Positions 38,321 to 53,999 of a DNA stretch of 64,000 nt are shown piece after piece. The translations under genes and the position numbers were made by a program. Source of the stretch: Marinomonas sp. THO17. Its GTDB lineage: Bacteria; Pseudomonadota; Gammaproteobacteria; Pseudomonadales; Marinomonadaceae. The DNA lies in assembly GCF_040436405.1 (NCBI RefSeq), contig NZ_AP031575.1, positions 1,616,501-1,680,500 on the forward strand. Direction: 5' to 3'. Numbering within the stretch: the first letter of the stretch is position 1; each line of letters starts with the position of its first letter. The notes under the pieces were generated by a model. That model was not told where the DNA came from. It saw nothing but the letters and a program-made list of their open reading frames with translations, and did not search any database.

Positions 38321-38350
38321 AAAAAAATTGACCGTTCGTTCAATTTTTTT
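38321..38350 (-). terminator. terminator of the diguanylate cyclase gene
   Basis: AAAAAATTGA and TCAATTTTTT arms around an 8-nt loop, starting at the stop codon of the GGDEF gene. A/T runs on both sides. Confidence 0.75.
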
Positions 38351-39515
38351 AGCTTTTTGACACGCTTTTGGCTGGCAAGGACTTAGAAACCCGATTTCGC
38401 CCCTTCTTTTTCGATTGATACAGGGCTTCGTCTGCACGCTTGATAACAGATTCAGAGTCTTCACCACTAGCGGCAAACGCCACTCCTATACTTGCGGTCA
38501 CATTGACACCCTTGTCTTTCTTCGCTTTAGGATCAAATACTTCCACAATCGCCTTTTCAATACTGGAGCGCACTCTTTCCAATACTTTTTCGACCTCTTT
38601 CAATTCACCATGCCGAAACACCAGAGTAAATTCTTCGCCACCATAGCGAAAAGCACGGCCTGGGGAGGAAAAGGCTTTCAACTGTTCAGCCACAATCTTA
38701 AGCACTTTATCACCCATATCATGGCCATAGGTATCGTTAAACTTTTTGAAATGATCCACATCTACCATGGCAATGGCATAGTATTTTGATAAACCAACTA
38801 ACTCTTCATTCAAAGCCCGACGACCTGGTAAACGTGTCATATCGTCCAAATAGGCCATTCGATAACTTTCCATTAATAAAAACCAGATCCACAACAAACA
38901 TTGTGCGGACAACATGGTGTCGTATTGCCCGTCGGAAATACTAAAGCGAGAGATAATAATGAGACTGATAACACTGACTAGCCCACAGGCATGAAACGCG
39001 TCATTGCTGCGCCACCAAGCCGCCGCCATTAACAAAATACTCACCACTAAGCCTGCCCATAACAAAAAATCTGACCAAGTAAAGGGAAATTGCCAAACAG
39101 CGTTATCAAGAAAAGAAAAAGACACCCAATGTCTTTCGATGGCATAACACCAGGTCACCAACATGGCGACAAACAATAGGCGGTTCACTGCGAACTTATT
39201 GAAAAAGCCACGCTCTTTAACAAAAGCGAGTAAAGCAACACTGAAGCAAGAGACAACCAGATACGCTGTAATGGACTCTGTTTGCTCAGAGCCACCATAT
39301 AATTTGGGAATTAGTAACAAAAGCACCAGTATAAAAACTCGACCTTTGTTAAAGTGCCATGCTAATAAAATGGCGATCGCAGCTAAAATCAAAGGCATCA
39401 AAGGCAAGATGCCAATCCACGCTGGCGGCAATATACCAATATATAAGCTAGCATACACACTCAAGAGCAGAATACAGCATGGTACGAATAAAGAACCAAA
39501 ACGCTCAGACAACAT
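38349..39515 (-). CDS. membrane-anchored diguanylate cyclase
   Basis: 388 residues: about seven hydrophobic segments in the first 215, then a GGDEF domain beginning DDMTRLPGRRALNEEL with the active-site RYGGEEFTLVF. Active GGEEF implies synthesis of c-di-GMP from two GTP. No EAL domain is present. The RxxD inhibitory site is not obvious: the residues five before GGEEF read SPGRAF. The sensory input of the membrane part is unknown. It is divergent from the hydroquinone reductase gene. Confidence 0.93.
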   Translation of the reverse strand: MLSERFGSLFVPCCILLLSVYASLYIGILPPAWIGILPLMPLILAAIAILLAWHFNKGRVFILVLLLLIPKLYGGSEQTESITAYLVVSCFSVALLAFVKERGFFNKFAVNRLLFVAMLVTWCYAIERHWVSFSFLDNAVWQFPFTWSDFLLWAGLVVSILLMAAAWWRSNDAFHACGLVSVISLIIISRFSISDGQYDTMLSAQCLLWIWFLLMESYRMAYLDDMTRLPGRRALNEELVGLSKYYAIAMVDVDHFKKFNDTYGHDMGDKVLKIVAEQLKAFSSPGRAFRYGGEEFTLVFRHGELKEVEKVLERVRSSIEKAIVEVFDPKAKKDKGVNVTASIGVAFAASGEDSESVIKRADEALYQSKKKGRNRVSKSLPAKSVSKS

Positions 39516-52229: not shown

Positions 52230-52952
52230 TTAAGCCTTCATTTGCTTTTCCATTGCCGTTAGCATGCCGCGCAACATACCATATTCTTGTTGATCTAATC
52301 TGGAACGCTGAAACAAACGGCGAAATCTAGGCATCACCTGCATTGGCATGTCTGGATCCAGAAACTCAACGTCCACCAAAACTTTTTCGAGATGTTCTAA
52401 CAAATAATCTACTTGTTCGACTGTGGCGGCAGGCACATCCCATTTATTTTGTACCGCAGGTTCCTCTTGGCTTGCTAAGGTTTTCATACGCAATTCGTAA
52501 GCAATTACTTGTACGGCCGCGGCCAAATTCAATGAACTAAAAGAAGACACAGACGGAATGTGGACATGGTAATGGCATCGCTGTAACTCTTCATTGGTCA
52601 AACCTCTGTCTTCACGACCAAAGACAAACGCCGTTATCAAACCTTCTTTAGACACCAGTTCCGCGGATTCACGAGGGTCCACTAACGGCCATGGGATAGT
52701 ACGCTCACGAGCACTCGTACCAATAACCAACTGACAATCTGTCAAAGCTTCTTCAAGGGTATCCACCACCACAGCATTTTCAAGGATATCCGTCGCCCCA
52801 GAAGCACGACTGATGGCTTCTTGGCTCGGATAATCCCGCGGCGCTACTAAATAAAGATCAACCAAGCCCATGTTTTTCATGGCTCGCGCAGCACCACCTA
52901 TGTTGCCTGGGTGCGAGGTATTCACCAGAACGATGCGAACTGAATTTTGCAT
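52230..52952 (-). CDS. trmJ: tRNA (cytidine/uridine-32-2'-O-)-methyltransferase
   Basis: 240-residue SPOUT methyltransferase that 2'-O-methylates position 32 of tRNAs. RIVLVNTSHPGNIGGAARAMKNMGL at the N-terminus, FVFGREDRGLTNEELQRCHYHVHIPS and SLNLAAAVQVIAYELR form the knot. A C-terminal extension after about residue 165 matches the longer TrmJ form. It is divergent from suhB, the same arrangement as in E. coli. Confidence 0.95.
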   Translation of the reverse strand: MQNSVRIVLVNTSHPGNIGGAARAMKNMGLVDLYLVAPRDYPSQEAISRASGATDILENAVVVDTLEEALTDCQLVIGTSARERTIPWPLVDPRESAELVSKEGLITAFVFGREDRGLTNEELQRCHYHVHIPSVSSFSSLNLAAAVQVIAYELRMKTLASQEEPAVQNKWDVPAATVEQVDYLLEHLEKVLVDVEFLDPDMPMQVMPRFRRLFQRSRLDQQEYGMLRGMLTAMEKQMKA

Positions 52953-53122: not shown

Positions 53123-53134
53123 CGCTCTTTAACA
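53123..53134 (+). promoter_or_regulatory. boxA-like antitermination element in the suhB leader
   Basis: CGCTCTTTAACA matches the rrn boxA core (GCTCTTTAACA) at all eleven core positions. It lies 77 nt upstream of the suhB start. In E. coli the suhB 5' UTR contains a boxA through which Nus factors including SuhB repress suhB, so this is probably an autoregulatory site. Confidence 0.75.
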
Positions 53135-53150
53135 CTTTATCTGGCAACTT

Positions 53151-53173
53151 GCTTACTCTCACAAAGAGTAAGC
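53151..53173 (+). promoter_or_regulatory. perfect 9-bp stem-loop downstream of boxA
   Basis: GCTTACTCT, loop CACAA, AGAGTAAGC. It lies 16 nt after boxA and 37 nt before the suhB ATG. The boxA-then-hairpin order resembles lambda nut sites rather than rrn leaders; the role is inferred. Confidence 0.6.
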
Positions 53174-53210: not shown

Positions 53211-53999
53211 ATGCAACCTAGAATCAATGTCGCACTAAAAGCAGCTCGTGCCGCTGCAGAATACATAGTTCACTCACAAGAGAAATTATTATTTGATAAA
53301 GAACAAGGTAAATCTGCTGCTGAAGTTTACGCTGCGGTTTGTTCTGGTGCAGAACGCAGCATTGTTTACCATTTGGAAAAAGCCTACCCAGCCGACACCA
53401 TTACGACTCGCTTACAAGGTAATGTACAAACGGGTGAAGAAGGTGAATGGGTAATTGATGCTATCCAAGGTCAACACCTATTTTCTCGCGGTCTAGCAGG
53501 CCACGTTATTACCATCAGCTATTTGGTTGCCGGAAAAGTAGAGCACGCTCTTGTGCTTAACCCTCACACCCGCGATGAATTTTACGCCAGCAAAGGTCGT
53601 GGTGCTTACCTTAACAACTCACGTATTCGTAGCAGTGCTGCACGTTCGTTAGAAAACACTACCTTAGCTGCTCAGTTTCCAGCGACAGATCGCACTCAAC
53701 CTTTCTTAGCAGGCCAATTGGCTACCCTATCTGACTTAGCACAACAAGGTGCTCGTGTTGTTATGCAAGATGCGCCCGCTCTTATGATGGCAAACGTGGC
53801 TGCAGGCCGTTTGGATGCTGCATGGGGAATTAAATTACAAGAATGGGAAATGCAAGCTCCATTGTTTATCGCTAAAGAAGCAGGCGCATTGATTGCCGCT
53901 TTTGATGGCTCACCCAAACTCGACTCTGGTGATGTATTGTGTGCTGCGCCACGTTTGTTTAAAAGCTTATTGCCTCTACTAAATAAGCACATTAAATAA
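53211..53999 (+). CDS. suhB: SuhB-like protein, inositol monophosphatase fold with lost metal ligands
   Basis: 262 residues aligning end to end with E. coli SuhB (start INVALKAARAAAEYIV, later VIDAIQGQ and SKGRGAYLNNSRIR). E. coli metal ligands are E67, D84, D87 and D212. Here E67 is Arg67, D87 is Gln86 and D212 is Glu213; only D84 (Asp83) remains. The TNVD segment reads AAVC, losing that Asp too. Phosphatase activity is therefore unlikely. In E. coli SuhB also acts as a Nus factor in rRNA antitermination without needing catalysis, and the leader here has a boxA. The weak ribosome site (ACGGTA) may suit translational control. Confidence 0.9.
   Translation: MQPRINVALKAARAAAEYIVHSQEKLLFDKEQGKSAAEVYAAVCSGAERSIVYHLEKAYPADTITTRLQGNVQTGEEGEWVIDAIQGQHLFSRGLAGHVITISYLVAGKVEHALVLNPHTRDEFYASKGRGAYLNNSRIRSSAARSLENTTLAAQFPATDRTQPFLAGQLATLSDLAQQGARVVMQDAPALMMANVAAGRLDAAWGIKLQEWEMQAPLFIAKEAGALIAAFDGSPKLDSGDVLCAAPRLFKSLLPLLNKHIK

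Follow-up and report, generated by a model that had tools for sequence, protein, structure and literature searches.

The suhB locus of Marinomonas

The window, that is, the whole 64,000-nt stretch of Marinomonas sp. THO17 DNA analysed here, carries on its forward strand an open reading frame (positions 53211 to 53999) whose 262-aa translation represents a SuhB orthologue that lacks the catalytic metal site. As the preliminary description had noted, the gene is divergent from its neighbour trmJ, which the list of open reading frames places at 52230 to 52952 on the reverse strand, and this arrangement is the one known from E. coli. The suhB leader contains a boxA, GCTCTTTAACA (53124 to 53134, + strand), an exact match to GYTCTTTAANA located 87 nt before the ATG. 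Behind it, a stem search detects a hairpin with a 9-bp stem and a 5-nt loop (53151 to 53173, + strand).

The Pfam Inositol_P family matches nearly the whole length of the protein with 88.2 bits (cut-off 27), and the best NCBIfam model is NF008027 (inositol-1-monophosphatase), with 135.9 bits against a cut-off of 332. Since an intact relative (L088) does not reach this cut-off either, with 316.8 bits, the cut-off does not define the SuhB orthologue group. The SuhB proteins of P. aeruginosa and E. coli are the top sequence matches in the PDB and also rank first when the AlphaFold2 model of the window protein (pLDDT 94.7) is compared by Foldseek, the first thirteen matches including chains of 6IB8 (NusA-AR2 complex) and 6TQN (antitermination complex). 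The model thus predicts a retained SuhB fold, as had been proposed from the letters alone. A second model, built for a protein of family f18 (see below), has a pLDDT of 92.0 and the same best fold matches.

In an alignment of the window protein with the E. coli SuhB encoded in NC_000913.3, residues C44, R67, D83, Q86, Q88 and E213 of the former occupy the places of D44, E67, D84, D87, T89 and D212, and E. coli numbering is used from here on. Accordingly, D44 is replaced by Cys, E67 by Arg, D87 by Gln and D212 by Glu, while D84 is the survivor among the four metal ligands (E67, D84, D87 and D212). T89, R184, A188 and E205 are likewise changed. The preliminary description had named Arg for E67, Gln for D87, Glu for D212 and Cys for the Asp of TNVD, which is D44, and the alignment bears out all four replacements; D84, which it left unmentioned, is retained.

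Orthology and paralogues

The gene is the suhB orthologue, as indicated by its divergent trmJ, the gene tree, the predicted fold and a low dN/dS. Of the 70 Marinomonas loci, 69 have a divergent trmJ and the remaining one has a short flank; the gene is also divergent in all 31 loci from the other families in which SuhB has lost its ligands (hereafter, lost families). In the gene tree, which contains long branches, a single branch separates the 27 SuhB rows, lost and intact together, from the paralogues (bootstrap 92, SH-aLRT 94), and the branches of the lost SuhBs are longer than the others.

The window genome encodes three more Inositol_P proteins, namely two IMPase-like proteins (L001 and L003) and CysQ (L002). 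These paralogues share the family with the pseudo-SuhB of the same genome; unlike it, they have intact EE, DPxDGT and WDxA motifs, and the tree places them apart from the SuhB group. The window genome thus has an intact IMPase-like gene (L001) in addition to the pseudo-SuhB. On the other hand, PF00459 matches just two proteins in each of three Marinomonas genomes that are 96-99% complete (G036, G038 and G042). The one retrieved is CysQ (NCBIfam TIGR01331, above cut-off), and we assume that the second is the pseudo-SuhB detected by the orthologue search. As no IMPase other than CysQ is detected besides the pseudo-SuhB in these three genomes, the latter is not kept merely as the partner of an active paralogue. 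Such a partnership is thereby ruled out as a general reason for its upkeep, and an active IMPase alongside does not appear to be needed by pseudo-SuhB.

Fixation and selection within the genus

Of 48 genomes of the genus, among them the one that contains the window, 47 have the orthologue, the 46 other copies being 66-92% identical to the window protein; the 48th genome, which gives no match, is 77% complete. All 47 orthologues have the combination C-R-D-Q-E at D44, E67, D84, D87 and D212, and all of them have Lys and Leu at positions 251 and 254. The same holds, for both sets of positions, for the 23 named Marinomonas loci, some of which are also among the 47. The pocket residues C44, R67, L68, Q87, Q89, Q156, D186 and P188 are also invariant in the 47 orthologues. 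The fixation of new pocket residues in Marinomonas is more than plain decay predicts, and it counts against the explanation that we consider best, a SuhB reduced to its role in transcription.

The frame is open in each of the 47 genomes that have the gene. The median dN/dS is 0.069, based on 33 of the 47 Marinomonas sequences and on the 120 usable pairs out of 528, the other 408 lying outside the dS limits and the other 14 sequences having been left out. Over the same 33 sequences, 102 of 265 alignment columns are invariant. These values indicate purifying selection on Marinomonas suhB. Sequencing error or a pseudogene is ruled out by the residues common to all 47 genomes with the gene.

Loss of the metal site beyond Marinomonas

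The changes are fixed in the genus and the loss reaches well past it, so that a change restricted to Marinomonas is ruled out. A survey of the order covered 195 genomes searched with the window protein, 38 of which were searched again with an intact SuhB, and yielded SuhB rows for 36 of the 43 sampled family codes (all but f15, f20, f24, f28, f29, f30 and f42); two non-SuhB paralogues (L149 and L152) were dropped from the rows. Loss of ligands in the SuhB adjoining trmJ was found in 10 of these 36 families and in three families elsewhere in the class. Within the order, the lost rows belong to f1, f5, f6, f13, f18, f33, f34, f35, f41 and genus g72 of f36, a mixed family with four further rows in the sample, all of them intact. 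Outside the order, they belong to f61, f183 and f154, two rows of the last matching weakly (29 and 45 bits) and being unsure in their alignment. D44 and all four metal ligands are present in each of the 62 rows classed as intact (E. coli, 60 rows of the order and one of f67), whereas each of the 51 lost rows has at most two of the four ligands. Different lost families have lost different ligands.

Across the class, E. coli SuhB finds a match in 373 of 377 genomes. By eye, 17 of these score worse than 1e-50, and eight of the 17 come from genomes with a degenerate SuhB beside trmJ (G000, G079, G109, G251, G344, G433, G456 and G503); among the other nine genomes, TrmJ is present but no adjacent SuhB was found in three, and TrmJ gave no match in six. 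In a separate observation, four f33 genomes (G217, G109, G079 and G198) have a second TrmJ-like gene (L309-L312), and no SuhB was found beside it.

The number of events was addressed with a tree of RpoB and NusA from 46 genomes, built by a quick search under a simple model and including three rows (G119, G126 and G162) with 27% of the columns. In this tree, 18 lost genomes of eight families form one clade (SH-aLRT 96), and three changes are required within the order. On the best tree, therefore, most losses in the order go back to one event that preceded the eight sampled families f1, f5, f6, f13, f18, f33, f34 and f35, and the losses in f41 and f36-g72 are separate from it. Fewer events are compatible with the data, as a topology with one lost clade is not significantly worse in the AU test (p = 0.199; p = 0.312 without f36-g72), and strictly independent losses within the order are not established. 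A second event in the order is suggested most clearly by f36, in which both states occur. At least one further loss took place in the families outside the order.

Of the 38 rows from the seven main-clade families with full-length proteins, every one has a replacement at D44 (Glu in eight cases), R184 and E205, and 37 have one at T89. These shared replacements are such as one old inactivation would leave. As for f36-g72, the lineage with the dead SuhB (L150, L151, L241 and L242) also has strongly diverged NusA and RpoB, NusA being 41-42% identical to that of E. coli.

What the lost SuhBs keep

The pattern of retention is not random. E205, R184, T89, D38, E67, A188, G156, E68 and D44 lead the columns that are conserved in intact SuhB and gone in the lost ones, while P3, W81, G132, R139, R141, E222 and G224 are among those retained. 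The comparison was quantified over the 74 columns with a conservation of 90% or more among intact rows, leaving out f13, f61, f154 and f183. At nine of these columns, which correspond to catalytic or substrate positions of human IMPase, identity in the lost families amounts to 15%, and at the remaining 65 it is 60% (Mann-Whitney p = 4e-5).

In E. coli SuhB, K251 and L254 are contacts to NusA-AR2 supported by measurement: the KL251/254AA variant binds AR2 with a Kd of 141 uM, compared to 94 nM (PMC6614801). Position 251 is Lys or Arg in 46 of the 51 lost rows and position 254 is Leu, Ile, Val or Met in 45, although it is still Leu in only 44% of them after weighting by family. The five rows that have no basic residue at 251 are the two of f13 and one each of f36, f61 and f154, the latter three with a gap, Pro or Gln. 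The f13 proteins beside trmJ (L298 and L300, from genomes G059 and G124) are 209 aa long and end without the C-terminal region bearing the NusA contacts; judging from this truncation, the Nus role is possibly also disappearing in f13. Paralogues (L001, L112, L113 and L121) were found, by eye, to have Glu or Asp at the place of K251.

The partners of SuhB are likewise present. The AR2 domain of NusA was found in each of 24 lost genomes, and its identity to the E. coli domain is slightly lower than in 21 intact genomes (0.52 vs 0.54). A match to the NusB domain, PF01029, was obtained in 31 of 32 lost genomes, and RsmB can also give such a match in each genome.

The leader boxA and its hairpin

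The leader provides a further, independent indication. It has been established that E. coli suhB is repressed by Nus factors through a boxA in its leader, with the consensus GYTCTTTAANA; in that work, boxA was required to lie within 50 bp of the start, compared to 87 nt in the window, and one genus with a boxA 82 bp before suhB is mentioned, which may be Marinomonas (PMC5725501). An exact GYTCTTTAANA occurs within 150 nt of the start in all 70 Marinomonas suhB loci, a redundant set with 47 distinct upstream regions, and in 15 of 21000 sequences of a Markov control. The boxA columns of these leaders are 99.8% conserved, compared to 65.8% for the rest of the 130 nt.

Outside Marinomonas, an exact leader boxA is found in both scanned f33 loci and in one of three of f35, and a boxA with one mismatch in seven of eight f5 loci, both of f6 and one of four of f41. 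No near boxA was detected in the leaders of f18 (eight loci), f34 (two) and f36-g72 (two), and none of the 56 intact loci of the order, from which a duplicate of f5 (L134) is excluded, has an exact one. Hence, a pseudo-SuhB does not always come with a boxA in its leader. Among the lost families other than that of Marinomonas, these counts cover f5, f6, f18, f34, f36-g72, f41 and part of the f33 and f35 leaders, and since the start of L182, and maybe other starts too, is misplaced, the corresponding upstream regions are unsure. In the window genome, a single 16S start was located, which is preceded by an exact boxA at a distance of 177 nt, and 23S-like starts at five loci are also preceded by one. 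Within the window, a second exact match (39212 to 39222, + strand) is antisense in an open reading frame on the reverse strand (38349 to 39515, a GGDEF protein by eye) and was set aside as probably due to chance.

In 42 of the 47 distinct Marinomonas leaders, the best stem begins 12-16 nt past boxA, and the position of the hairpin is kept across species while its sequence varies, amounting to 36 distinct stems. The mean stem score is 16.3, compared to 10.9 (sd 2.5) in shuffled leaders, 4.4% of which attain the observed median. RNAalifold returned four pairs on the leader alignment because the stems are out of register in it, and a direct stem search was used instead. The hairpin behind boxA recalls the boxA-boxB order of phage nut sites. 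In the phage lambda nut site, boxA is followed by a spacer and then by a hairpin, as in Marinomonas, where the loop has 5 nt in 11 of the 15 leaders displayed; its sequence is not conserved, and the likeness is probably an analogy only.

A probable reduction of SuhB to its transcriptional role

We consider it quite probable, at roughly 85%, that Marinomonas SuhB is a SuhB reduced to its transcription-factor role, a Nus factor for rRNA synthesis that has no two-metal site. The sequences themselves provide the orthology, the loss of ligands and its fixation throughout the genus, purifying selection, the fold as predicted, the retained K251 and L254, and the presence of AR2, NusB and boxA; from them we infer a protein that would be inactive as a phosphatase, bind NusA, function in rRNA synthesis and control its own gene. 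In the proposed mechanism, the IMPase fold without its two-metal active site would dock on the AR2 domain of NusA in boxA-directed complexes and would serve these complexes in rRNA synthesis, while pseudo-SuhB probably limits its own expression via the leader boxA. The preliminary description had suggested that selection acts on the antitermination role of SuhB and not on its phosphatase activity, a proposal that gains support from K251/L254, AR2, NusB, the leader boxA and the dN/dS values.

A more doubtful, though conceivable, scenario is that the pocket has been repurposed, for instance with Arg67 facing D84 and E212 where the metal ions used to be, and that the protein may thus sense or bind a ligand besides its Nus role. 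The replacements fixed in all 47 Marinomonas orthologues speak for it, as does Arg at position 67 in 19 of the 38 rows of the seven lost families and in all four rows of f41. Nevertheless, in the other half of these 38 rows (19) this place is taken by Leu, Thr, Pro, Val, Gln, Met, Ser or the original Glu, f36-g72 has Phe or Ala, and the protein is not known to bind a ligand there. A protein that is still a phosphatase, by means of another metal arrangement or on another substrate, is improbable: in its favour, the fold persists, D84 is still there and a metal might yet be ligated by Glu at 212, but E67 is now Arg and D87 Gln, D44, T89, R184, A188 and E205 are replaced too, and the ligands lost differ between lost families. 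We give even less credit to a decaying gene whose loss is incomplete and whose function has been taken over by an active IMPase paralogue. While the intact IMPase-like L001 of the window genome and the longer branches of the lost SuhBs would fit this view, the open frame in all 47 genomes with the gene, the median dN/dS of 0.069, the 102 invariant columns out of 265 (33 sequences) and the three genomes in which no intact IMPase was detected argue against it.

The reading of Marinomonas SuhB as a Nus factor reduced to its transcriptional role can be extended to a broader and tentative model, to which we attach somewhat less than even odds. In Gammaproteobacteria, SuhB would have changed from an enzyme into a Nus factor with a purely structural function on two occasions or more, and probably on three or more, one of them preceding the split of a large group of families of the order. 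The emptied pocket would have been refitted, often with Arg at a metal-ligand site, and the metal-free fold would present its NusA surface permanently instead of according to its Mg2+ or substrate state.

It has been reported that the growth defect of suhB is not tied to IMPase-defective mutants, and that a link of the two functions is still possible (Singh et al. 2016, PMC4807359); dispensable catalysis is therefore already known in E. coli. No description of a natural enzyme-dead SuhB was found in the open literature library, by titles and the beginnings of abstracts among the matches listed, and the natural, repeated loss of SuhB catalysis appears to be new within that library. The lost lineages that keep the NusA contacts, and in Marinomonas the leader boxA, have the appearance of naturally occurring separation-of-function mutants, and they speak against catalysis as the property for which suhB is maintained. 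Their SuhBs would represent ready-made, catalytically dead proteins for biochemistry, and we suggest that the name "inositol monophosphatase" is misleading for whole families.

Comparison with known SuhB proteins

E. coli SuhB, both a Nus factor and an inositol monophosphatase (PDB 2QFL, 6IB7, 6IB8 and 6TQN), resembles Marinomonas SuhB in its locus beside trmJ, its fold, K251 and L254, a leader boxA and its Nus partners. Its IMPase activity has been demonstrated (PMC4807359). It differs from the Marinomonas protein in retaining D44, E67, D84, D87, D212, R184 and E205, whereas Marinomonas keeps only D84 of the five positions D44, E67, D84, D87 and D212. The distance of boxA is also distinct, as it starts 28 nt before the ATG in E. 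coli and 75-92 nt before it in the Marinomonas loci displayed (measured on a 12-mer). The closest solved structure to the Marinomonas model is P. aeruginosa SuhB (8WIP), with a TM-score of 0.93 and 37% identity. Unlike the Marinomonas protein, P. aeruginosa SuhB (8WIP and 8WDQ) has intact catalytic motifs, and 8WDQ is titled as a complex with inositol 1-phosphate.
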